30,785 nucleotides of DNA from positions 1 to 30,785 of the IMG/VR virus record IMGVR_UViG_3300030012_002413, one strand, 5' to 3'. The stretch's first letter is position 1, and each line of letters opens with the position of its first letter. Source of the DNA: a virus. The notes beneath the pieces were generated by a model. It was given only the letters and a program-made list of their open reading frames with translations. It made no database searches and was not told the origin of the DNA. The position numbers and the translations under genes were made by a program. This document shows positions 5,441 to 30,785 of the stretch, piece after piece.

Positions 5441-6127
5441 TTATGATACCTGCTCAAGATAACTGATGAGTCCCATCGTATAGGCGTGCGCTATGTCATC
5501 CCGCCGGTTCTTGTAGGTGTCCCAAGAGCGTAAATTACTAGCAAAAAGAGGCTCAAGGATTGCTGCTGGTGGAGCACATTTAAATAGGAACGAACTGCCC
5601 CTCTGGTTTCTTGTGCGAACTTTCACACCCCTGTTCGGTTCTCCGGGGAATAGTTCAGCCATTGCGTCCTGCAAGCAGTTCCCAAGAATGGTTCCCCGTT
5701 GGCTTCCTGTTATGAGTGTCTCAAAGCCCCTCACAGAGCGGTCTGATGAGCTGTTGAAATGCAACTCAACCACCAGCTCGGCCTCAAAGTCTTTCACCTG
5801 AGTTGCAACGAAGTCCATTGCTTGTGAGTATGAGAGATCAGTGAGGTATCCATACTCATCAACAACCAAAACCTCACACCCAAGGGCCTCGAGGTTTGCC
5901 TTCACTTTGTGCGCTATCGGCTTGTTCCATGCGTATTCTGTTACTCCCCCCGGAGCCGTAGCTCCGAAGTCTCCCGCCCTGCTATGCCCAACGCAAATGG
6001 CTACCCTCCTGCCTTCCAGGTTTTTGGGTTTAGCAACTGGCGGTGGAAGCAGGGAGTCCCTTGTTTGCTCAAGGATTCGAATGGCTCTGTTTAACTCAGA
6101 TATGGTTTCGGTCTCGTTTTTTTTCAT
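5441..6127 (-). CDS. N-acetylmuramoyl-L-alanine amidase (Amidase_3 type endolysin)
   Basis: A 228-residue zinc amidase that cuts the bond between MurNAc and the stem peptide. After a helical N-terminus (ETISELNRAIRILEQTRDSL) and a proline-rich linker comes the Amidase_3 domain: H48 in ICVGHSRAGDFG, E64 in VTEYAWN, H123 and N125 in ELHFNSSSD as metal-site residues, and catalytic E192 in AAILEPLF. T7 uses an unrelated Amidase_2 lysozyme (gp3.5) after gp3; here the endolysin is of another fold and placed before the integrase and RNA polymerase. No signal peptide is seen, so it needs a holin. Its start overlaps the previous gene as ATGA. The call is firm; whether it also regulates the polymerase, as gp3.5 does, is unknown. 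Confidence 0.94.
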   Translation of the reverse strand: MKKNETETISELNRAIRILEQTRDSLLPPPVAKPKNLEGRRVAICVGHSRAGDFGATAPGGVTEYAWNKPIAHKVKANLEALGCEVLVVDEYGYLTDLSYSQAMDFVATQVKDFEAELVVELHFNSSSDRSVRGFETLITGSQRGTILGNCLQDAMAELFPGEPNRGVKVRTRNQRGSSFLFKCAPPAAILEPLFASNLRSWDTYKNRRDDIAHAYTMGLISYLEQVS

Positions 6128-7428: not shown

Positions 7429-7704
7429 CTAGGCAACGGAAAGCAGATTGTCAAAGAACTCTTGCGGCATCTCCTTGGCTCTCTTTGCTCTCTCAGCGGA
7501 GAACGTATCGCGCAGCCATTTGTTGATGTGTCGGGTAGTTGTTTGGCTCCACTTCTTGCTAGTGCGTGCGAGGGCGCAACCGTTATTCTCAGCAGCCAAG
7601 GAAAAGATACGAGCGGCCACTGGCGTTTCGTAGCTGACAAGCACAAGAGTCCCATCCTCAAGGATGATTTCGGTCATATTCGATGCAATGTTTTTTACTT
7701 TCAT
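7429..7704 (-). CDS. Small phage protein of a widespread type (91 aa)
   Basis: A 91-residue protein, MKVKNIASNMTEIILEDGTLVLVSYETPVAA followed by WSQTTTRHINKWLRDTF and a C-terminal PQEFFDNLLSVA. A small beta-sheet start (two strands around EIILEDGTLVLVSY), a TTTRHINKWL block and a PQEF…NLL end recur in my memory of many small phage and single-stranded-phage proteins of unknown function, so I think it belongs to a real family, but I cannot name its role. The leader AAAACAAACAAAGAACC matches the one before the gene at 7210. An 81-base gap containing a possible shared element (7752-7777) precedes it. Confidence 0.78.
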   Translation of the reverse strand: MKVKNIASNMTEIILEDGTLVLVSYETPVAARIFSLAAENNGCALARTSKKWSQTTTRHINKWLRDTFSAERAKRAKEMPQEFFDNLLSVA

Positions 7705-8323: not shown

Positions 8324-8521
8324 TTACTGATGAGCGTTGAGTGCCTCGCGTGCTTCAATGCGTTTATCCATTGCTTCCCAAGCTGCCTCGCGGTGCTTTA
8401 GGTTTTCCATAGAGTCCTTGATGTAGATAACACCGAAGGCAACTGTGAGGATAAGGAAAGCAACGGCTGCTACATTGTAAGCAATATCGCTTGAAGTCTT
8501 TTGTGTGTATTGTTTTTGCAT
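8324..8521 (-). CDS. Small single-TM membrane protein, first early gene
   Basis: A 65-residue protein with one clear transmembrane helix (about residues 15-34, NVAAVAFLILTVAFGVIYI), a short N-terminus with QKTSSD and a charged C-terminal helix (DSMENLKHREAAWEAMDKRIEAREALN) that may form a coiled coil. It is unrecognised. It is the first gene after the noncoding region, and a host-type promoter candidate (8532-8559) would start RNA within a few bases of its ATG. The message would then be leaderless or nearly so, or that promoter is not the one used. The bases before the ATG (CCGCCTCGTC) show no SD. Confidence 0.72.
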   Translation of the reverse strand: MQKQYTQKTSSDIAYNVAAVAFLILTVAFGVIYIKDSMENLKHREAAWEAMDKRIEAREALNAHQ

Positions 8522-8927: not shown

Positions 8928-9119
8928 TCAGTCCTTCTTGGAAGGCACCAAGTTAATCCCAGCGTTTAGCTTAGGGGGCATTGGGCGCACTTCCAGATCT
9001 ACAGCGATGTCTTTTGGGGGATCTGTGAGGGGCACTGGAAAAGAGCCACCGAGATCCAGGGTTGAGCAAGAGGACACAAGAAGTGATCCCATTGCGAGCA
9101 TTGTTAGTTTTTGTTTCAT
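8928..9119 (-). CDS. Small outer-membrane-type lipoprotein
   Basis: A 63-residue predicted lipoprotein. MKQKLTMLAMGSLLVSSC is a typical lipoprotein signal peptide with lipobox LVSSC (Cys18), and the mature part is short and proline-rich (FPVPLTDPPKDIAVDLEVRPMPPKL). Length, lipobox and proline content match outer-membrane spanins (Rz1-like), but no inner-membrane partner is adjacent, so a surface-exclusion or other lipoprotein role is possible. It starts right after the U tract of the 9125-9197 terminator, so it would be expressed only by readthrough or from an unseen promoter. A second lipoprotein gene lies at 25680. Lipoproteins of this type argue for a Gram-negative host. Confidence 0.75.
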   Translation of the reverse strand: MKQKLTMLAMGSLLVSSCSTLDLGGSFPVPLTDPPKDIAVDLEVRPMPPKLNAGINLVPSKKD

Positions 9120-10406: not shown

Positions 10407-12077
10407 TCAGAGCCAGCTAGGACCGCTCACAGAGGATCCTCGGGACTTATAGAAGCTATCTTGGAACCTTTGTAGTTCTTCTCTAAGTAGATCTTCTTTT
10501 CTGTCTTCCATCTTTTGGGAGGCATCTTGTGCCATTTGTTCTGTCCAGTAGGCAATGGCTATACTGAGGGCATCCAGTCTGTCATCGTGTGTAATGGCTC
10601 CTCGGTCTCTTGTGAGTCTACTTAGTTGGTAGATTAGCTGGTATTTGAGGGAGGATTCGTTTGGATAGTCTTGAGCTGTCCTGAAGTCGTTCTTGATGAC
10701 CTCTGGGTCTATGATGAGCTTGTGTCCTGCCATCACGGGTTCCAGGGTATCTATGATCCTGCGTTCCTTTTGGGTGCTGTGACGGACTTCTTCGATGGTG
10801 CAAGGGTGAACCTTTGTGAGTATGGGCTTTATTAGCTCCACAAACATACCATCACCAAAGTTACTCTCCACAATGATTGTATTTACATTGTGTTCTTTTG
10901 CCAACACACAGAGATACTTGAGGGTTTCTTCACTGTATCCCCCTTGTAGTCCCCCAGCGGCAGGAACGTAGAGGAATCCGTTGAGCATCTTACAGACTGC
11001 ATATCCTGTTTCGTCCTTTCCTCGTCCTGCTGGGTCAATACTGAGGACACTACCAGTAAACGGGATGTGGTCCCCAAGAACCTTAAAAGGCCTGTGGAAG
11101 CGATCACCAGTCATCCCTACGTTGGGAACCGCTGAGTCCCATTCGAGGGACGGATCGTTTGCCCACACAACCTTTTCGGGTGCTACCTCGTCGTCAATGC
11201 TCATCACAAGGAGGTCATTGATCTTCAACGGGTATTTCTCTACGTCTGACAGCTTGGAATCCAGCATGAACTGGAGGGCGAACCCAGCAGACCCGTAAGA
11301 AACCTTTCGGTCAGCCAGGTCTATGTCAGAGAAACGTAGGGGTTCTGTGGTTTTGTTTTCTTTTTCGGTGCTTACACAGAGCTGACTGATGTTGTCGTTG
11401 TAGGTCAGGTTGTTTTTGCTCTGTGTGACGTATTGAGCGGGCCATATTTTTGTATCGTAGCCTCGTTCTTGTAGTGATCTGTAGAGTGTGTCCTCGCACT
11501 GTGGGGTTCCTAGAAAGAGTATCTTGGATTCCTTGTTTGGTTTGATGATAGCGTCGAACTCCTTGACTTGTTCGCCAAGCTTGTCGCGCATCATTTGTGT
11601 TGCTGAGTTATTTGGAACCTCTACGTCATCAGCAACGATTATGTCTGCTCGGGAGCCTGTTAGTTGAGACGTAATTCCAAGGGACTTGACGGAGGGGGCA
11701 TGACTTGCTGGAGCTGGTCCAACGTCAAAGGAGATTTTGGAGAACCGTTGTTTATCTCCGGGAGCAAGATGTTGGAGAAATGGAGCTTCGTGGATGAGTC
11801 TAAGTGTGAATGTGCTGAAATCATCTGCTCGAGTTTTAGAAGCACTGACAACAAGAATGTTCTTGCTGGGATCGAGGAGCAACTGGTGAACGACGAAAGC
11901 ACTGCAAATCCAAGACTTACCAACTCCTCGAAATCCTTGGATGACAGCTCGTTTTGGTCCGTGCTGCATGTAGTCTGCGATTTCATATTGGATAGGTGTT
12001 GGTTGAGGTAGGTTTAGTTGTTTCCAGACTAGGAATAGAAAGTTTCGGAAGTCCTTGATTTCTTCAGGTAGGTCCAA
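10407..12077 (-). CDS. T7 gp19-like large terminase (DNA packaging ATPase-nuclease)
   Basis: A 556-residue packaging motor protein. Walker A is GFRGVGKSW (residues 48-56; T7 has FRGIGKSF), Walker B is ADIIVADDVE (144-153), and the nuclease carries VLSIDPAGRGKDETG and a C-terminal HDDRLDALSIA. It cuts concatemers and pumps DNA into the prohead through the portal. No ATG is available; the TTG at 12077 gives MDLPEEIKDFRNFLFLVWKQLNLP, which aligns with the T7 N-terminus. The preceding bases (AATAACAAAACCCC) are typical of the A/C leaders here. It starts 17 bases after the small terminase stop. Identity is firm; the start is less certain. Confidence 0.97.
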   Translation of the reverse strand: MDLPEEIKDFRNFLFLVWKQLNLPQPTPIQYEIADYMQHGPKRAVIQGFRGVGKSWICSAFVVHQLLLDPSKNILVVSASKTRADDFSTFTLRLIHEAPFLQHLAPGDKQRFSKISFDVGPAPASHAPSVKSLGITSQLTGSRADIIVADDVEVPNNSATQMMRDKLGEQVKEFDAIIKPNKESKILFLGTPQCEDTLYRSLQERGYDTKIWPAQYVTQSKNNLTYNDNISQLCVSTEKENKTTEPLRFSDIDLADRKVSYGSAGFALQFMLDSKLSDVEKYPLKINDLLVMSIDDEVAPEKVVWANDPSLEWDSAVPNVGMTGDRFHRPFKVLGDHIPFTGSVLSIDPAGRGKDETGYAVCKMLNGFLYVPAAGGLQGGYSEETLKYLCVLAKEHNVNTIIVESNFGDGMFVELIKPILTKVHPCTIEEVRHSTQKERRIIDTLEPVMAGHKLIIDPEVIKNDFRTAQDYPNESSLKYQLIYQLSRLTRDRGAITHDDRLDALSIAIAYWTEQMAQDASQKMEDRKEDLLREELQRFQDSFYKSRGSSVSGPSWL

Positions 12078-12094: not shown

Positions 12095-12325
12095 TTATTC
12101 GCCCACCACTTTATCTACTCCATCCTCGTTAAATGGAAGAATCTTACACAACTCTTCTAGGGGACTCTCAGCAGAAGCCATAGCACTGATGCCGTTGTCT
12201 TTGAGGAGCTGACGGGCTGCACTGAGGTCTGCTGGAGCTGCTTCACCACTTTGGATTCTCAGTATGAATTCATCAATGAGTATATCCTGGAGTTGCTGAA
12301 GCTTGTCTTGTGTTGGTTTGCTCAT
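12095..12325 (-). CDS. T7 gp18-like small terminase subunit
   Basis: A 76-residue acidic helical protein (MSKPTQDKLQQLQDILIDEFILRIQSGEAAPADLSAARQLLKDNGIS…), matching the size and pattern of T7 gp18 (89 residues), which recognises the concatemer and loads the large terminase. The conserved feature is the helix-turn region APADLSAARQLLKDNGI. It overlaps the holin stop as ATGA and is followed directly by the large terminase, as in T7. Unlike T7, no spanin genes lie between gp18 and gp19; a spanin-like pair is instead found near the capsid gene. Confidence 0.9.
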   Translation of the reverse strand: MSKPTQDKLQQLQDILIDEFILRIQSGEAAPADLSAARQLLKDNGISAMASAESPLEELCKILPFNEDGVDKVVGE

Positions 12326-12477
12326 TCTTTTTTGAGTTCTTTAAATATCTTTACGCCTAAATAGAACAGAGTTGTAGCGCCCACAGCAATAGCCACCATG
12401 TTGTTGATGTCGCTAAGGGTGATTGTTCCTAGTAGTCCTGTGATGCCTACTGCGGACGGAAGGTGCTCGGAGTTCAT
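12322..12477 (-). CDS. T7 gp17.5-like holin
   Basis: A 51-residue holin candidate. It has one hydrophobic helix (about residues 24-42, NNMVAIAVGATTLFYLGVKIF) and a short basic C-terminus (KELKKE), typical of class II holins such as gp17.5 in the same position between the fibre and the small terminase. I start it at ATG 12477, eight bases after the fibre stop with leader TAATAAAACCC, rather than at the upstream in-frame start at 12516, which would overlap the fibre gene. The stop overlaps the small terminase start as ATGA. Confidence 0.82.
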   Translation of the reverse strand: MNSEHLPSAVGITGLLGTITLSDINNMVAIAVGATTLFYLGVKIFKELKKE

Positions 12478-12485
12478 GGGTTTTA

Positions 12486-13343
12486 TTAGGCGTAAGCTCG
12501 GAAAACTAACCCCCACTTAGAGGTGTTAATAGTTGCCAATGTTCCACTAGCTGATGACTTATCGAGAACATAAATATCATTTTCTCTTCTAAACTCTATC
12601 TTAGCAGATGTAGCCCAAACAGCTATGTTGTTGGTTCCTGTTGCATTAAGGAACAATTGAACCTCATCGTTTACGGAATACCCAAGTTCTGAGCTAGTGC
12701 ATTTAAGAACTACGAAAAACAATTTAGGAGAAACAGATAAGCCATGAGCTAATCCTGTGTCTGTGTCTACTGCTGGAATTGATTGTATTGAGCTTTCAAA
12801 GCTGTTTGAGAAAGCACCTGCTGCTCCTGCTGCTCCTGCTGCACCATCAGAAATAACAAAAGATTTATCTGTGCTATCTCCAGCGTCATCTAGTTTTATT
12901 GTAACCGTAGTATCTAAACCAACTTTACTTGTAGTAATCTGGTCAATGCCAACCCCAGTAGCCCCCGCAGGTCCTTGTAGTCCTGAAGCAGTTGCAGATG
13001 CGTTCTCTAAGACCTCTTGTGCAGCATAGACAGCGTGCCTGTAGGACGTATCTAGGTCGCTTTCGGTAATCCTTGAGCCGCTTTGGAAGTCTACTAGTTC
13101 ATCAGTTCCCGTAGACCGATAGATTCTAATCTTGTTAATGCCGTCACTACCAGTGCTAGGTGCAGAGCTAGTTGTAGCCGTAGTTCCATTCACTGTTACC
13201 GTAAGGGCTCCTGTGGTGTAAGTGGTTCCGTTGTTGGTTGACGTAGCGACTTTAAGATGTCCTTGGTTTATGAATTTAACATTAAAGCCTGTGAAGCTGG
13301 TGCCTGTAAGACCAGATGTGTATTCTTGATAGCTGTTAGCCAT
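12486..13343 (-). CDS. T7 gp17-like tail fibre with collagen-like repeats
   Basis: A 285-residue fibre protein. The N-terminus (MANSYQEYTSGLTGTSFTGFNVKFINQGHLKV…IRIYRSTGTDELVDFQSGSRITESDLDTSYRHAVYAAQEVLEN, residues 1-115) is the gp17 domain that attaches fibres to the tail. Then come collagen-like Gly-x-y stretches (GLQGPAGATGVG and GAAGAAGAAGAF) and a C-terminal domain of about 100 residues. It is much shorter than T7 gp17 (553 residues), so either the receptor-binding part is small or the larger LamG/CBM adhesin at 28810 provides it. It precedes the holin by eight bases. Confidence 0.9.
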   Translation of the reverse strand: MANSYQEYTSGLTGTSFTGFNVKFINQGHLKVATSTNNGTTYTTGALTVTVNGTTATTSSAPSTGSDGINKIRIYRSTGTDELVDFQSGSRITESDLDTSYRHAVYAAQEVLENASATASGLQGPAGATGVGIDQITTSKVGLDTTVTIKLDDAGDSTDKSFVISDGAAGAAGAAGAFSNSFESSIQSIPAVDTDTGLAHGLSVSPKLFFVVLKCTSSELGYSVNDEVQLFLNATGTNNIAVWATSAKIEFRRENDIYVLDKSSASGTLATINTSKWGLVFRAYA

Positions 13344-20050: not shown

Positions 20051-20731
20051 TTATAAAGGTGGAAGAAGTGAGGGGTCTATGAATCCTGTGCCTGAAGGCA
20101 AACCGGGAGTTACATTTGTAAACGTAGGAGTCATTGGTGACGTAACGTCTCTTACAGGAACTGAACGGCCCACAACAGGTATAGCTCTGCCAGCATTTGA
20201 AACGTCAACTCCTCCAGACCCCCAATCTTGAGCAACTGACTGCATAGAGGTTCCTACTTGAACCCCTGTAAGCAGTGCTTGCAAAGGATTCTCTTGCTGA
20301 ATCGGTTGGTTAATTCCAAGCAAGTTCATACGGCTTCTCATACGAGCATCATTTAATGCAAGGTTTCTATTTACATCCTGCATCTCAGCTCTGCGTGTTT
20401 CTGAGAACCTATTACGAGCAAAATTAGCAGTCATGCTATCAATAAGCGCCTGAACACTAAGACCAGTAACTCCTGCTTCACCAGCAGCTACTCTAGCTCT
20501 AGCCATTGCTAGTTGGTTTCCTCTGGAAGCAGCTCCAATTCGCTGTGCGCGTGCCACTTGCTCTTGCGCTTGTTGCACCCTAGCAGCGTTTACTTGGTCT
20601 AAATACCTAGCCTGTTCAAGCTCAGTAGCTCTTTCTTGTGCTCTTTCTTGTGCTGATGCCGCTTGACGCTGCCCTATAAAAGACGCTCCAGCAGAAGCAA
20701 TTCCCGCGATTAAACCGATTGGCGCACACAT
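20051..20731 (-). CDS. T7 gp14-like internal virion protein B
   Basis: A 226-residue protein with a hydrophobic glycine/alanine start (MCAPIGLIAGIASAGASFIG), a long Gln/Ala/Arg-rich helical stretch (AQERATELEQARYLDQVNAARVQQAQEQVARAQRIG) and a proline-rich tail. T7 gp14 (196 residues) is the outer-membrane channel part of the ejection machine, with the same kind of N-terminal hydrophobic segment. The position between gp13- and gp15-like genes fits exactly. It begins three bases below the gp13-like stop. Confidence 0.88.
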   Translation of the reverse strand: MCAPIGLIAGIASAGASFIGQRQAASAQERAQERATELEQARYLDQVNAARVQQAQEQVARAQRIGAASRGNQLAMARARVAAGEAGVTGLSVQALIDSMTANFARNRFSETRRAEMQDVNRNLALNDARMRSRMNLLGINQPIQQENPLQALLTGVQVGTSMQSVAQDWGSGGVDVSNAGRAIPVVGRSVPVRDVTSPMTPTFTNVTPGLPSGTGFIDPSLLPPL

Positions 20732-24477: not shown

Positions 24478-25545
24478 TTAAACACTAAATACCTCAACGG
24501 CAGCTTCAGGACGAAGAATACCGTGACCCATTGCATACTTAGCTGCAAAGAGGGTAGCTTGACGCTCGATCTGATACTCACTTTCGGTAGCAAGATCAAG
24601 AAGCTTAACGGTTCCTACAGCCATTTCGTGACCAGCAATGTAACCGCAACCTTCAGCGTAAGTAGTGCCTTTAGACAGCGTAGAAAAGTCGCCGTTGTAG
24701 CCTTTGTTGGCAGCACCGAACACATCGTTGTTTACTCCAGGAGCAGCAGTAGAACTAGCATCACCAAGAGCATCTACATCTTTAATGTGATTACTCTTGT
24801 AGATACGAATACCAGCAACTTCAACAATAGTTCCTTTAGCAGCGTCTGCGCTACCGCTAGAAGTGTCTTTGTTAATTGCGGTGCTGTCAGTTGTAAGCAA
24901 CTTGTAATATTCAGCAGGACCCATGACAGCAAAACGCCCATCAGATGGAACGTCTTTTTCGTCAAGCGTCTCAGCTACTTTAAACAGTGAATCAATCAAG
25001 GCTGAAGTAGTAGTAAGATCACCACCGTCGAAACGAGTTCCTGCACCTCCGGGCACTTCAGCACTTGCGCGAGCAGCAGCAATAAACGTCTTAATGATGT
25101 TCAAGTCGCACTCCTTAGCAAGCGCCTTACCAAGCTCTGCGGAATAAATAGAACGAAGATCGTAATGGTTACGAAGCTCGTCGATATTAGCAATAAGCGT
25201 GGAAGCAACAAGAAGGTCATCGATGAAGATTTGCTTCTCGTTGTGGGCGATTTGTGACAAGTAGCCGTCAGCAGCAGTAGAACTGCCAGCAGGGCCAGTA
25301 ATAAGCGACTCACCGGGCTTGTGGTATTTAGCCGATGCGGTCCCTGTTACTGGGAAGCTTGCCGATTTACCTGAACTAATGGAGCGAACCATAGTCAGGT
25401 CTTTCATAATGTTGCTCTCGTTGAATGCCGTCAGGATTTCACCTGCAAACACCTTCAAGAACAACGCATTGTCCCCGTTTACAGTGGTCACCCTTCCAGT
25501 AGGGGTTCCAGCTATACCGGGAATCGAGGGGATGTTAGTAGCCAT
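24478..25545 (-). CDS. T7 gp10-like major capsid protein
   Basis: A 355-residue capsid protein (T7 gp10A is 345) that forms the icosahedral shell in the HK97 fold. The N-terminal MATNIPSIPGIAGTPTGRVTTVNGDNALFLKVFAGEILTAFNESNIMKDL and following GKSASFPVTGTASAKYHKPGESL are typical. It is preceded by a 134-base leader with AAACC-type repeats and followed by a strong terminator. The start is ATG 25545, with AAAGG 9 bases upstream as a possible weak SD. No frameshift signal for a gp10B-type extension was identified. Confidence 0.97.
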   Translation of the reverse strand: MATNIPSIPGIAGTPTGRVTTVNGDNALFLKVFAGEILTAFNESNIMKDLTMVRSISSGKSASFPVTGTASAKYHKPGESLITGPAGSSTAADGYLSQIAHNEKQIFIDDLLVASTLIANIDELRNHYDLRSIYSAELGKALAKECDLNIIKTFIAAARASAEVPGGAGTRFDGGDLTTTSALIDSLFKVAETLDEKDVPSDGRFAVMGPAEYYKLLTTDSTAINKDTSSGSADAAKGTIVEVAGIRIYKSNHIKDVDALGDASSTAAPGVNNDVFGAANKGYNGDFSTLSKGTTYAEGCGYIAGHEMAVGTVKLLDLATESEYQIERQATLFAAKYAMGHGILRPEAAVEVFSV

Positions 25546-25679
25546 AATATATTAGCCTTTCGATTTGGTTGGTTTGGTTTGGTTTGGTTGGTGTCCTTGG
25601 GCTTTATCTTGTTCGTCCTGTGTTATCCACCTCAGTGGGCATAGGTCTACTAGCGATTAAGCTTTATTAGACAAAAGAT
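25546..25679 (-). promoter_or_regulatory. Long capsid-gene leader with AAACC repeats
   Basis: This 134-base gap upstream of the capsid start is the longest between virion genes. Near the gene it holds tandem ggttt/ggttg units (25567-25591, minus-strand AACC-type repeats). Further up, 25647-25672 shares its ends and an A(C/T)TAAGCT core with a site at 7752-7777 in the early region. A promoter for the phage polymerase is expected here by analogy with phi10 in T7, but there is no SP6-like core. Confidence 0.4.
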
Positions 25680-25871
25680 TTATTCGTGTTCCAAGTCATT
25701 CACGTAATGAAGAATTTCCTTAATGGTGTTTCTTTCACTCTCTGAAAAATCGTGGACTTGGAGCTTTTCGATGAACTCTGGTATCCTTGTCGGTTTCATC
25801 GGTGCCGCGCACCCAGCCATCAATAAGATCGTGGTTACGCTTATGACGCTCCAGTTTAGTCTTTTTGACAT
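25680..25871 (-). CDS. Small lipoprotein, outer-membrane spanin-like
   Basis: A 63-residue predicted lipoprotein: MSKRLNWSVISVTTILLMAGC has a signal peptide and lipobox LMAGC, then PTRIPEFIEKLQVHDFSESERNTIKEILHYVNDLEHE. I chose ATG 25871 because it places the signal peptide correctly; an upstream start at 25919 would add 16 unlikely residues. Most of the gene overlaps the 70-residue gene above in another frame, which is the known layout of Rz/Rz1 spanin pairs. The mature part is not strongly proline-rich, so the spanin call rests on gene layout. Confidence 0.72.
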   Translation of the reverse strand: MSKRLNWSVISVTTILLMAGCAAPMKPTRIPEFIEKLQVHDFSESERNTIKEILHYVNDLEHE

Positions 25872-25947
25872 AAGACTCTTGGACCTTAAAGAACAGGTCA
25901 GCAAGTTTTGGAAAAGCAATTAGTAACTTAACAATAGAAGAGATCAC
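25735..25947 (-). CDS. Small membrane-anchored coiled-coil protein, inner-membrane spanin-like
   Basis: A 70-residue protein with an N-terminal hydrophobic segment (ISSIVKLLIAFPKLADLFFKV, residues 2-22) and a basic helical part (QESYVKKTKLERHKRNHDLIDGWVRG), then a charged tail. The start and WVRG end resemble small proteins I recall from marine T7-like phages. The N-terminal anchor plus coiled coil, with a lipoprotein gene nested in another frame, fits an i-spanin. It overlaps the gene before it as ATGA. The assignment is by architecture only. Confidence 0.7.
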   Translation of the reverse strand: MISSIVKLLIAFPKLADLFFKVQESYVKKTKLERHKRNHDLIDGWVRGTDETDKDTRVHRKAPSPRFFRE

Positions 25948-26138
25948 TCTGCTGGTTTGTCTTTGGCTTTACCTACGTTAAGCGCCAGCCAGTCAACAAT
26001 CTTGTATGCCTTACCAACCCAAGAGTCATCCTTGGGGGTAGGAGTAAGAGCTGCAACAAGGGAGGCAAGAGCAACCACAGAGCTAGCAATAGCAATGATG
26101 TCCTCTTTGTTTTCAAGGATGTAATTAATAAAATTCAT
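25944..26138 (-). CDS. Small single-TM protein, holin-like
   Basis: A 64-residue protein with one hydrophobic helix (EDIIAIASSVVALASLVAALTP, about residues 12-33) and a lysine-containing soluble tail (KAYKIVDWLALNVGKAKDKPAE). The pattern MNF…ENKE…TPKDD…AYKI looks like a small protein family in marine podoviruses. It forms a run with the two spanin-like genes, which suggests a complete lysis cassette between scaffold and capsid. Two other holin candidates exist in the window. It begins nine bases below the scaffold stop; the leader CCTATAATTACTGAC has no SD. Confidence 0.72.
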   Translation of the reverse strand: MNFINYILENKEDIIAIASSVVALASLVAALTPTPKDDSWVGKAYKIVDWLALNVGKAKDKPAE

Positions 26139-26146
26139 GTCAGTAA

Positions 26147-26908
26147 TTATAGGATGTTGGATACAGAAAGCCTTCTTTCGACTTCCTCACGATACGATGG
26201 AACCTCTTGGTATCTCCGATCACTCATAGCTCTCTGAAGTTCCTTTGTGGAGCTAAACGGTTTTACAGAGTTACCGCTTGTGGCCCCTTGCTTGAGTGCT
26301 GGGCCAGAACCAGTAGAGCCTCTGTATTGAGCATGAAGTCCTTTGATTGCCAACCTTTGCTGCTCTGGGGTTCCATTGATGACAAGTTCGTTAAAGGTAT
26401 CTACTTCTCCTTCTGTCAGGGTCTCTCCTGCCCATTGGATCATACCGTCATACTCTTCTTCTCCACCAATAGAGTTGTAGAGGTCAACCGCATTACGCTC
26501 TACCAGAGCCTGTTGTCCTGCAATGTATGCCTCAACGTATTCCTTAGGCAACCCAGCTTTCTCTAGGGCTGCAAAGGTGTCCTCACTCAGCTCTCCCTTT
26601 TCATCAAACTCAAGGGTAGCCTTGGTAACAACATCAGAGCTGTCGATATTATCTTGTGGTGTCTCTTCACTAGCTACCTCTTTTGTCTCTTCCTTTGGCT
26701 CAGACAGTTTCTTTTGTAGCTCGTTGTATGCCTTAGCTAAATCTTCTGGTGAGTTGAACTTCTCATCAAGCCACTCAGGTCTTTCCTCAGTAGCTGGTTG
26801 TTCTTCGCTGGTAGCAACTGCTTCTTCTTGCATCTCTGCTTGCTGCTCCAGTGTGATCTCTTCGTTTTCAGTGGGTTCGTTGATTACCACTCTATTAGCT
26901 TCAGCCAT
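26147..26908 (-). CDS. T7 gp9-like capsid scaffolding protein
   Basis: A 253-residue, strongly acidic protein rich in Glu and Gln (NEPTENEEITLEQQAEMQEEAVATSEEQP…) with a helical C-terminal region (SVKPFSSTKELQRAMSDRRYQEVPSYREEVERRLSVSNIL) that would bind the capsid protein. T7 gp9 is 307 residues. Acidic composition and position right after the portal gene identify it. It directs prohead assembly and leaves before packaging. Unlike in T7, it is separated from the capsid gene by three small lysis-type genes. Confidence 0.93.
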   Translation of the reverse strand: MAEANRVVINEPTENEEITLEQQAEMQEEAVATSEEQPATEERPEWLDEKFNSPEDLAKAYNELQKKLSEPKEETKEVASEETPQDNIDSSDVVTKATLEFDEKGELSEDTFAALEKAGLPKEYVEAYIAGQQALVERNAVDLYNSIGGEEEYDGMIQWAGETLTEGEVDTFNELVINGTPEQQRLAIKGLHAQYRGSTGSGPALKQGATSGNSVKPFSSTKELQRAMSDRRYQEVPSYREEVERRLSVSNIL

Positions 26909-28809: not shown

Positions 28810-30785
28810 TTAATAAGGGGTATCTGTTTTTATGTCGGACGCTGGGTCCATATTGGTCATCACCGCTGGTCCTATAAGCTTTTGGACCTTAATGTTGCTC
28901 CACTGAGCGTATTTACTAACGTCGAGACTATCGGCGCTAAGAACGCCTGAAAGGCCAAGCGCCACATAAGTATAAGTGAACGAACCGCTACCGGCAGGAA
29001 ACATATAATAAGTGCCCCCTGAACCAGGCCAAAAGCGAGCGCGGGCGTTTGAGTCATCAGTTTCAAAATCAAAACTTATGCAGTAGACTTGGCCTACCAC
29101 CTGATTTTCCGTCAGCAAACCACTTACACCAATAACTGCGTATCCTGCTTGATGTGAAGTGCCGTCTCCAGCACCCGTTCTAGTCATGCGAACAGCAGTG
29201 GGTGTCGGGTTAGAAAAAGTATTGGCAGCATAGGCCACCCACCTGCCCGAATCATAAGCGTCACTTCTTAGTAGATTGGCATCCTTGTATTGCCCACGGA
29301 TGCGATTGAGAGAAATATTACTGATGGTTCCTGAGAACCCACTATTTACGAGTAACGTTATCTTATTATTATGACTATAGTCCTTTACCGTATGAATTAA
29401 CTCATACGTGCCAGTGGTTACGTTAGAGACAATAAGGGAATTAAGAGTGTCACCGATGCGTAAAATCAAGGCTCCGGTGCCATCGTTTGTAACATCTACG
29501 GTGAGGCGGAACGTTTGTCCTATAGGTAGCGTAAACAAATACTGGGCAAAAGCCTGCTCTCCTCCTGTGCCCGCATAAGACAACGTAGTGCCATCCCAAG
29601 TCATATTATTGAGAGACGCCCAGTCCGATGAGCTTGGATTAGTCGGGAACATTTCGTCTCCCTCAAACTCCAGTCCCTCAAAGATAATATTGTTGGTGCC
29701 GTCAGCGTAGCCATCGCGGGAGGCGTCCCCCATGCGCCACCAGTGAAGCGCATTGTCGCTCAGGTCGTATGCTCCGTTGCCGCTAGATACATCTATGGGG
29801 CGTCCTCGATTGAATAGGGCACGAATGGCTTCATCGTCGAGGTCCTCGTGGATGGAGAATTCGTCGATGCTTCCAGAAAAGTAAACGTCCCCTGCTTTGC
29901 CAATTTGAATACCTGTTTCGTAAGTATTCATCGAGCCACTGTTTACTGTTGTATCAACTGTTTGTTTCACCCCATCACACCACAATTCACATCCCGTTAT
30001 GTCATTTCCGACAGTTTTTAAAGTCCACATATGCCATGCTGAGTCATCTTGGGCACCAGTCGGTGTATCAACCCAATATCTAAAAACAGAAGCCGCCATC
30101 CATAAAAGGGGTTTGCTTGAAGATTGGTTAAAGTGAAACGCGCCTTTATCCGAATAAGTGCTCGTTGTTCCGTGCGAGAAGACTGGATTATGGCCTGTGT
30201 CTGAAGATTTGCTCCACCAATTATAATACCTGCTCTCTCCGTTGGGTTGCAACGTATCGTCCACCTGTGTCACCAAGTGGTCATTCGTTCCGTCAAATTT
30301 AAGGCTCTTCGTGTTGTCCACCGGAGGCAACGCATAGATAGCCTTGGGTGCCTCTGTCTGGATTGTGGCTCCGGTGATTGTGCCGGTGTGTCCGTTGACC
30401 TCTTTGACGCTTACGTTGTCTACGGTGAACGAATAATCACCCGTGCTATCGTGCCTATCAACGGCAACAAGGGTGGAGTTAGAGTTTGCTGTCCAAAACA
30501 GCTCAACATTTTGCAAAGCGCCGGTCATTGTAATGATTCCGTTAGTGCTTGTTGAATTGTTCAGCGTTGTAAGCCCCCCAAGGTTGGCCCCGTTATCTAA
30601 AAAGCGCATTTTCTTGCCAGCTGTTCCAGTCACCTGAGCTGTCAGTCGATATGAGCGACCTGATGTATACGAAACATTTTGGTGCGCATAACTATAAGCC
30701 CCACCAGTTACACTCACTGTTAAAATGCCATCTGATATTGTAGAGTTTGATTTACTCCAGTCGGTGTCAGACGAGAAGTCACCGT
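28810..30785 (-). CDS. Multidomain carbohydrate-binding tail adhesin (cut by window edge)
   Basis: A long beta-rich protein whose frame stays open to the right edge, so the N-terminus is missing. From the start of the visible part there is a CBM-like jelly roll (ending near NVSVKEV), a LamG/concanavalin-like domain (SLKFDGTNDHLVTQVDD through WHMWTLK, GVKQTVDTTVNSG and YFSGSIDEFSIHEDLDDEAIRALFNRGR), a WWRMGD linker and two further CBM-like blocks (SDWASLNNMTWDGTTLSYAG and a following one up to YAQWSNIKV). These modules bind surface polysaccharides, so it is a likely receptor-binding or tail-spike protein. Gene placement before the portal is where T7 has host-range tail gene 7.3. The region seems richer in G+C than neighbours. 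Confidence 0.85.
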   Translation of the reverse strand, partial: GDFSSDTDWSKSNSTISDGILTVSVTGGAYSYAHQNVSYTSGRSYRLTAQVTGTAGKKMRFLDNGANLGGLTTLNNSTSTNGIITMTGALQNVELFWTANSNSTLVAVDRHDSTGDYSFTVDNVSVKEVNGHTGTITGATIQTEAPKAIYALPPVDNTKSLKFDGTNDHLVTQVDDTLQPNGESRYYNWWSKSSDTGHNPVFSHGTTSTYSDKGAFHFNQSSSKPLLWMAASVFRYWVDTPTGAQDDSAWHMWTLKTVGNDITGCELWCDGVKQTVDTTVNSGSMNTYETGIQIGKAGDVYFSGSIDEFSIHEDLDDEAIRALFNRGRPIDVSSGNGAYDLSDNALHWWRMGDASRDGYADGTNNIIFEGLEFEGDEMFPTNPSSSDWASLNNMTWDGTTLSYAGTGGEQAFAQYLFTLPIGQTFRLTVDVTNDGTGALILRIGDTLNSLIVSNVTTGTYELIHTVKDYSHNNKITLLVNSGFSGTISNISLNRIRGQYKDANLLRSDAYDSGRWVAYAANTFSNPTPTAVRMTRTGAGDGTSHQAGYAVIGVSGLLTENQVVGQVYCISFDFETDDSNARARFWPGSGGTYYMFPAGSGSFTYTYVALGLSGVLSADSLDVSKYAQWSNIKVQKLIGPAVMTNMDPASDIKTDTPY

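Follow-up and report, generated by a model that had tools for sequence, protein, structure and literature searches.

A probable lysis cassette with an overlapping candidate spanin pair between the scaffold and capsid genes of a T7-like phage

The stretch of DNA analysed here, referred to below as the window, comes from a marine T7-like phage; the virus record comprises 30,785 bases, and the phage genes lie on the minus strand. It codes for an RNA polymerase (PF00940, 1.6e-94), endonuclease I, an ssb-like protein, portal, scaffold, capsid, tail tube, and a T7-type terminase. The Autographiviridae traits present are the phage's own RNA polymerase and the order gp8-gp9-gp10-gp11-gp12, in which gp8, gp9, gp10, and gp11 were assigned by family and gp12 by position and BLAST cluster. 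The record is a genome fragment, one end of which cuts through the primase gene. The window ORFs scanned against the libraries, part of the full set, included no identifiable DNA polymerase. A large minus-strand ORF upstream of the portal gene (28810-30783) runs off the window end; by eye it looks like a LamG-type structural protein, while PHROGs returned nothing for it and Pfam nothing significant. Between the gp9-like scaffold and the gp10-like capsid lie three small overlapping ORFs, all on the minus strand (Table 1). The first-pass annotation had described such a group at this position, and both the coordinates and the family-matched borders bear it out.

Table 1. Coordinates of the trio, its surroundings, and other genes of the window discussed in the text.
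Feature	Position	Strand	Remarks
Scaffold, gp9-like, upstream boundary of the trio	26147..26908	-	PF05396, 3.9e-16
Lead gene, 64-aa membrane protein, ATG start	25944..26138	-	phrog_9685, 9.2e-18
Candidate i-spanin gene, 70 aa, GTG start	25735..25947	-	4-nt overlap with lead stop
Candidate o-spanin gene, 63-aa lipoprotein, lipobox MAGC	25680..25871	-	+1 frame relative to the i-gene
35-nt block between the o and capsid genes	25617..25651	-	identical in 10/10 aligned loci
Major capsid protein, gp10-like, downstream boundary of the trio	24478..25545	-	PF21703, 2.2e-56
Small membrane protein at the T7 gp17.5 (holin) position	12322..12516	-	between gp17 and TerS
TerS	12095-12325		
TerL	10407-12077		
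Endolysin, Amidase_3	5441..6127	-	PF01520 3.1e-17; phrog_435 6.2e-30

The lead protein has a single hydrophobic segment (residues 14-32), followed by the motif LTPTPKDD and a C-terminal helix; AlphaFold2 places helices at residues 3-9, 11-31, and 39-60 with moderate confidence (pLDDT 70.6). The protein of the middle gene (the i-gene) has a weakly hydrophobic N-terminus, a long helix, and a charged C-terminus. Its predicted helices span residues 2-11 and 13-46, again with moderate confidence (mean pLDDT 69.8) and with a low-confidence tail. The N-terminal segment scores 1.60 (KD19) with 3 charges, and the same measure applied to T7 gp18.5 gives 1.35 with 3 charges. The third gene (the o-gene), read from the ATG at 25871, yields a normal signal peptide (MSKRLN...LLMAGC), while the TTG start at 25919 in the ORF list is merely the longest option. 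From this ATG the o-gene overlaps the i-gene by 137 nt and runs 55 nt beyond its stop. The lipoprotein gene had been described as nested in the middle one; the overlap stands, but full nesting does not. This architecture corresponds to the overlapped type of spanin gene layout, with the second gene in the +1 frame.

PHROG and Pfam searches with the i and o proteins of the window gave nothing significant, spanin families included, and tblastn with the i-protein gave phage S45C18 as the only significant match. A profile of the window o-protein aligned with the o-spanins of phage LUZ100 and of a Lysobacterales contig (L119) over the 18-column signal region only, at 44% probability. A survey of spanins counts 143 i and 125 o families, and among its 528 two-component systems the o-spanin was unannotated in 196 cases (PMC6139136). 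The same source quotes the lipobox consensus as [LVI][ASTVI][GAS]C and also reports deviations (PMC6139136). The window lipobox, LLMAGC, departs from this consensus in the Met at -3, and its Gly-Cys is invariant in 11/11 aligned sequences. The assignment of the window pair as spanins is therefore made on architecture, position, and association rather than on sequence; the lysis reading of the trio is well supported by association.

The association was followed through the lead gene, using a search profile built from five aligned lead proteins. The IMG/VR scan gave at least 578 confirmed relatives, of which the best 80 were kept, and the scan of GTDB genomes gave 19 loci. Together with the window, S45C18, LUZ100, CGphi29, Azospirillum phage Cd, and 8 loci derived from a capsid search, these form a set of 112 loci. 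This sample is biased, as only the best 80 of at least 578 IMG/VR relatives enter it, and it contains 70 representatives at below 90% lead identity. Among the loci found by capsid, L009 was already counted before these additions, and L005 (a near-copy of L004), L013 (on the same contig as L025), L015, and L016-L021 stand outside the count.

Neighbouring ORFs of at least 90 aa were clustered by BLASTP. The commonest neighbour cluster of the lead gene is an Amidase_3-type endolysin, found in 43/112 loci (23/70 representatives) and starting 254-875 nt after the lead stop in all 43. No amidase lies upstream of the lead gene within the 3.5 kb examined in the 112 loci, a comparison that rests on fewer loci because at least 1 kb downstream is available in 105 and 3 kb upstream in 61. 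Two members of the cluster were compared with Pfam (L059, PF01520 3.2e-25; L028, 5.6e-14), all three scanned against PHROGs fall in phrog_435 (endolysin), and the remaining members were assigned by BLAST clustering alone. The window endolysin sits outside the trio cassette. Judged by its alignment with the L038 amidase (40% identity, 5.5e-44), it is homologous to the amidases that relatives carry next to the trio.

In 61/112 loci (36/70 representatives) the lead gene is followed by an overlapping lipoprotein pair under the strict rule. Under a relaxed rule, set after seeing the data, which allows Pro at lipobox position -2 and a search reach of 700 nt, an overlapping lipoprotein occurs in 81/112 loci, including 43/43 amidase loci. 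The gp9/gp10 context is present in 33/112 lead loci, 30 of them with a strict pair; neither amidase nor T7 context is present in 42/112, and 12 of these have a strict pair. The 19 GTDB loci include 2 with an amidase and 7 with a strict pair, and one, in a Parvibaculaceae genome, adjoins a gene-transfer-agent gene (GTA_TIM, 2.2e-154). In Azospirillum phage Cd the endolysin is followed, three genes further on, by a lead homologue, and no overlapping pair was found beside it.

In five loci of alphaproteobacterial genomes (L112, L114, L115, L120, and L122), tail genes of gene-transfer-agent type stand about 1-3 kb upstream of a gene for a lead-family protein. GTA_TIM was confirmed in L115 only, and none of the five has a strict spanin pair. 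It is possible that the lead-family gene near such clusters is a gene-transfer-agent release gene.

The same position in related phages was examined, as had been proposed, and the trio or a similar set occurs between gp9 and gp10 in several of them. A capsid search found 18 IMG/VR loci, and the region preceding the capsid was inspected in 17 of them, the exception being L015, which begins within that gene. A homologous trio is present in 11 close relatives (L004-L014). In the distant loci L016-L021, with capsids 45-48% identical, a TM gene is followed by a small gene overlapped by a lipoprotein-like gene (6/6 by eye). The TM genes of L016 and L017, the two that were scanned, fall outside phrog_9685, and the L017 TM protein does not align with the window lead protein. 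These six loci thus have the same layout logic, with other proteins, at the same site.

In six T7-like loci the amidase itself lies at the gp9-gp10 site. Scaffold and capsid are visible on either side of the lead-amidase set in L050, L058, L059, and L102, and in all of these but L102 additional ORFs precede the capsid; only the capsid is seen in L062 and only the scaffold in L078, whose contigs end there. The order in L102 is gp8-gp9-lead-i-o-amidase-gp10, and its o-protein is 56% identical to that of the window. Recognised spanin families also follow the lead gene: in L119 the i-protein matches phrog_1026 (9.2e-10) and the o-protein phrog_1275 (2.3e-12), both labelled 'Rz-like spanin', and the L109 o-protein matches phrog_8971, with the same label (3.2e-6). 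Mesorhizobium phage Lo5R7ANS has, in genes 44-47 (L160:3274-4459), an amidase (phrog_822, 8.8e-57), a TM protein, and an overlapping Rz/Rz1-like pair (i, phrog_739, 8.3e-5; o, phrog_456, 0.0056) between its head assembly and major head genes.

Other named phages were inspected as a small subset of the 1358 records with a scaffold match. The gap of RHEph01 contains a gene of the lead family (phrog_9685, 6.7e-6), and those of RHEph21 and TRX32-1 contain a lead-like gene; none of the three gaps has a visible pair. No pair was found in the gap by eye in CRP-171, CRP-804, CRP-118, CRP-227, HTVC120P, S42-C7, or BB8, nor by annotation in P-SCSP1d, nor in T7. Consequently, the cassette is not family-wide. 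The BB8 gap protein was considered as a holin by its look, and it matches only phrog_28107, of unknown function. A tRNA-Asn gene lies in the gp9-gp10 gap of LUZ100, RHEph01, and RHEph21, beside the cassette or lead gene.

The trio is very probably a lysis cassette at a position other than that used by T7, with the lead protein as a membrane protein of the lysis module and the pair as spanins. This lysis-type interpretation, already put forward in the first-pass annotation, gains support from the endolysin beside the trio in relatives, from the six endolysins at the gp9-gp10 site itself, from the recognised Rz/Rz1 families after the same lead gene, and from Lo5R7ANS, where a lysis set that does not match that of the window occupies the same site. 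The overlapping pair most likely makes spanins that break the host outer membrane at lysis. In the proposed sequence of events, a holin would open the inner membrane first; the endolysin should need this step because no signal sequence is evident in it by eye. The Amidase_3 endolysin would then degrade the peptidoglycan, after which the i-protein and the o-lipoprotein would form a complex and break up the outer membrane. Within this scheme the topology in the membrane, the complex, the attack on the outer membrane, and what the lead protein does are predictions. Points against the reading are the lack of a spanin family match for the window pair, the weak N-terminal segment of its i-protein, the endolysin lying outside the cassette, the 42 lead loci with neither amidase nor T7 context, the low counts among the GTDB loci, some of which lie in gene-transfer-agent-type clusters with no pair, and the lead homologue of phage Cd.

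The part of the scheme most open to another reading is the identity of the holin. The lead protein could be the holin, or it could be a partner of a holin encoded by the small membrane protein gene between gp17 and TerS; its role would be of either kind. Its family, PHROG 9685, is annotated as of unknown function and has no Pfam match, and the lead protein has no match among holin families; 'holin-like', as the first-pass annotation called it, describes its shape. The alternative, which has about an even chance, keeps the pair as spanins, takes the gene between gp17 and TerS as the holin, and makes the lead protein an accessory, either an antiholin or a membrane partner. That gene occupies the same site as the class II holins of T7 and LUZ100, is kept in 17 IMG/VR loci, and codes for a small protein whose single strongly hydrophobic segment lies close to the C-terminus, a feature that the same measure finds in T7 gp17.5. 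However, it has no significant match among family profiles, holins included, and its L142 relative has only weak HP1/holin matches (E 0.11, 0.18, 0.41). Against the lead protein as holin, the LUZ100 genome codes for a phrog_920 holin (5.7e-11) in addition to its lead protein, an HP1-type holin gene stands next to the trio of CGphi29, and at least 11 amidase loci have a second TM ORF between the pair and the amidase. In favour of it, the L038 amidase locus has no other plus-strand TM ORF within 2.5 kb.

Spanins elsewhere in the genome had been named as a finding that would count against the cassette. They were looked for in the window, itself a genome fragment, and one lone lipoprotein stands out (8928-9119, minus strand). 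It is unlikely that this protein, together with a TM-coil protein at 8324-8521 near the endolysin end of the genome, forms the true spanin pair. The lipoprotein contains prolines as well as a lipobox, its gene is closer to that of the endolysin, 10 IMG/VR loci conserve it, and it has a weak match (E 0.39) to an Rz-like PHROG. However, it has no overlapping or adjacent partner in L123, L131, or L132, and the TM-coil protein occurs in one relative only, with no counterpart seen in L123, a locus of the long relative that is closest to the window. On its own a lipoprotein does not make up a two-component spanin, and this one shows no C-terminal TM segment as expected of a u-spanin. It possibly acts in superinfection exclusion.

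Slightly less probable still is that the trio consists of membrane proteins for head assembly or superinfection exclusion, with no part in lysis. Its placement between scaffold and capsid would suit such a function. Small lipoproteins are also known as exclusion proteins, and the L109 and Lo5R7ANS lipoproteins have Cor-like PHROG matches (E 0.16 and 0.021). However, 37/43 amidase loci have no gp9/gp10-like neighbour in the span examined, which indicates that the lead-pair unit accompanies endolysins outside that site, and the proteins in this slot belong to recognised Rz/Rz1 families in LUZ100 (o) and in L119 (i and o).

The overlap of the two frames was examined by codon randomisation. An overlapping open frame of at least 50 aa is not rare, appearing in 524/2000 synonymous codon permutations of the i-gene. 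However, an overlapping ORF with a lipobox appeared in only 11/2000 permutations and in 1/2000 trials with codons resampled from the late genes of the phage. The same permutation control is weaker in some relatives among the 18 loci tested (225/2000 in S45C18, 664/2000 in L102), where codon resampling gave 41/2000 and 25/2000, respectively. In a further test, nine relatives, hand-picked from those with a homologous pair, were each compared with the window. The real o-frame similarity was reached by 0/1000 i-synonymous permutations in 7/9 relatives, by 19/1000 in L050, and by 31/1000 in L031. In the reverse test, with o-synonymous permutations and the i-frame scored, the result was 0/1000 in 6/9 relatives, 15/1000 in L031, 4/1000 in L026, and 1/1000 in S45C18. 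Because both frames are better kept than under synonymous permutation in 9/9 comparisons, both appear to be under selection. A fixed-rule scan of the whole window found five lipobox ORFs on the coding strand, of which only the o-gene has an overlapping hydrophobic partner; on the plus strand the same rule found three, one with a partner, opposite the ORF at 7429-7704. A chance origin of the lipoprotein ORF within the middle gene, or of the middle ORF within the lipoprotein gene, is accordingly of negligible probability.

Some indications on expression come from LUZ100, in which the start of the mapped phage promoter phi7 (record 20586-20635) falls at the very end of gp38 (ending at 20617), before the capsid gene. 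This placement puts the LUZ100 cassette upstream of the capsid promoter, and the cassette would be read mainly with the upstream genes. The unannotated i-gene contains a terminator feature, T13 (20323-20422). The first-pass annotation had proposed transcription alongside the highly expressed structural genes, which for the window is a conjecture. The 35-nt block, identical in L004-L014, lies just upstream of the capsid and has a small predicted hairpin. No second copy was seen in the window, and among the top matches on either strand of the loci compared, the block came up at this site only. The block is possibly a regulatory element. A search for a repeated promoter-like element near the capsid (coding-strand 20-mers, up to 4 mismatches) returned only low-complexity and chance-like matches, and Rfam gave no match at gathering scores.

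With the trio read as a lysis cassette, candidate spanins become available for a set of marine T7-like phages and for LUZ100 (the unannotated i ORF with gp38), and PHROG 9685, of unknown function, gains a probable lysis role. Annotators should look between gp9 and gp10, in the overlapping frame. The non-matching lysis sets at the same site in different phages show that T7-style ordering of late genes does not hold throughout the family. More tentatively, and with a little less than an even chance, PHROG 9685 ('LTPTP.DD') is a hitherto unrecognised family of holins or of obligatory spanin-linked membrane proteins, which moves together with rapidly diverging overlapping spanin pairs, as one unit, among marine phages, prophages, and even gene transfer agents, the gp9-gp10 gap being a recurrent lysis slot in T7-likes outside the T7 lineage. 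Title and abstract searches, which left subscription papers mostly outside, found no literature on spanins or lysis genes between gp9 and gp10 and none naming Lo5R7ANS. One published sentence may overlap part of the finding, and priority cannot be claimed.

Among known systems, T7 provides the reference. As the first-pass annotation had stated, its gp9 and gp10 are adjacent (93 nt apart) and its Rz/Rz1 genes lie between gp18 and gp19. The present phage has no spanins at that site, as had also been noted: the gap between TerS and TerL is 17 nt, which leaves no room for them. Like T7 gp18.5/gp18.7, the window pair would combine an inner-membrane-anchored helical protein with an out-of-frame lipoprotein gene that starts inside its gene, and the N-terminal segment of both i-proteins is weak by the same measure. 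The T7 pair is embedded, whereas the window pair is overlapped, shorter, and located between gp9 and gp10.

Ayaqvirus S45C18 (AP013544) has a homologous trio at the same site (lead 57%, i 46%, and o 40% identity) and, like the window, an Amidase_3-type gene elsewhere in the genome. Its i-gene is longer and its lipoprotein gene fully embedded, in contrast to the overlap in the window, and further small genes precede its capsid. Lo5R7ANS likewise carries lysis genes in the gp9-gp10 gap, but its amidase, i, and o proteins have no meaningful alignment with their window counterparts. Its amidase lies inside the gap, unlike the window endolysin, and its i-protein has a clear TM segment (KD 2.23), whereas that of the window is weak. 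In Salicola phage CGphi29 (SLPG_00043-45), a lead homologue with 40% identity is likewise followed by an overlapping pair. Unlike in the window, this trio is preceded by the HP1-type holin (PF16080, 6.8e-10) and a peptidase/endolysin-like protein, and no T7-type late-gene order is seen around it.

A parallel in a described phage is LUZ100, where gp37, an unannotated ORF, and gp38 reproduce the trio of the window in order, overlaps, and gp9-gp10 position. The lead genes are homologous (48% identity), and both phages encode an integrase. The i-gene candidate of LUZ100 (OP329100, record 20275-20511; L022:20198-20434) overlaps both gp37 and gp38, and its protein has no family match. The LUZ100 paper reports no spanins; the missing annotation of this gene would explain why the pair was missed. 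The gp38 protein matches phrog_1275 'Rz-like spanin' (1.6e-12), whereas the window o-protein has no match to phrog_1275. A tblastn search with gp38, taken up to E = 1, matched 39 phage records, one of them LUZ100 itself, and the matches were weak (best non-self 5e-4); a spanin or Rz name stands under the match in 18/39. LUZ100 further differs from the window in having a recognisable type II holin elsewhere in its genome.
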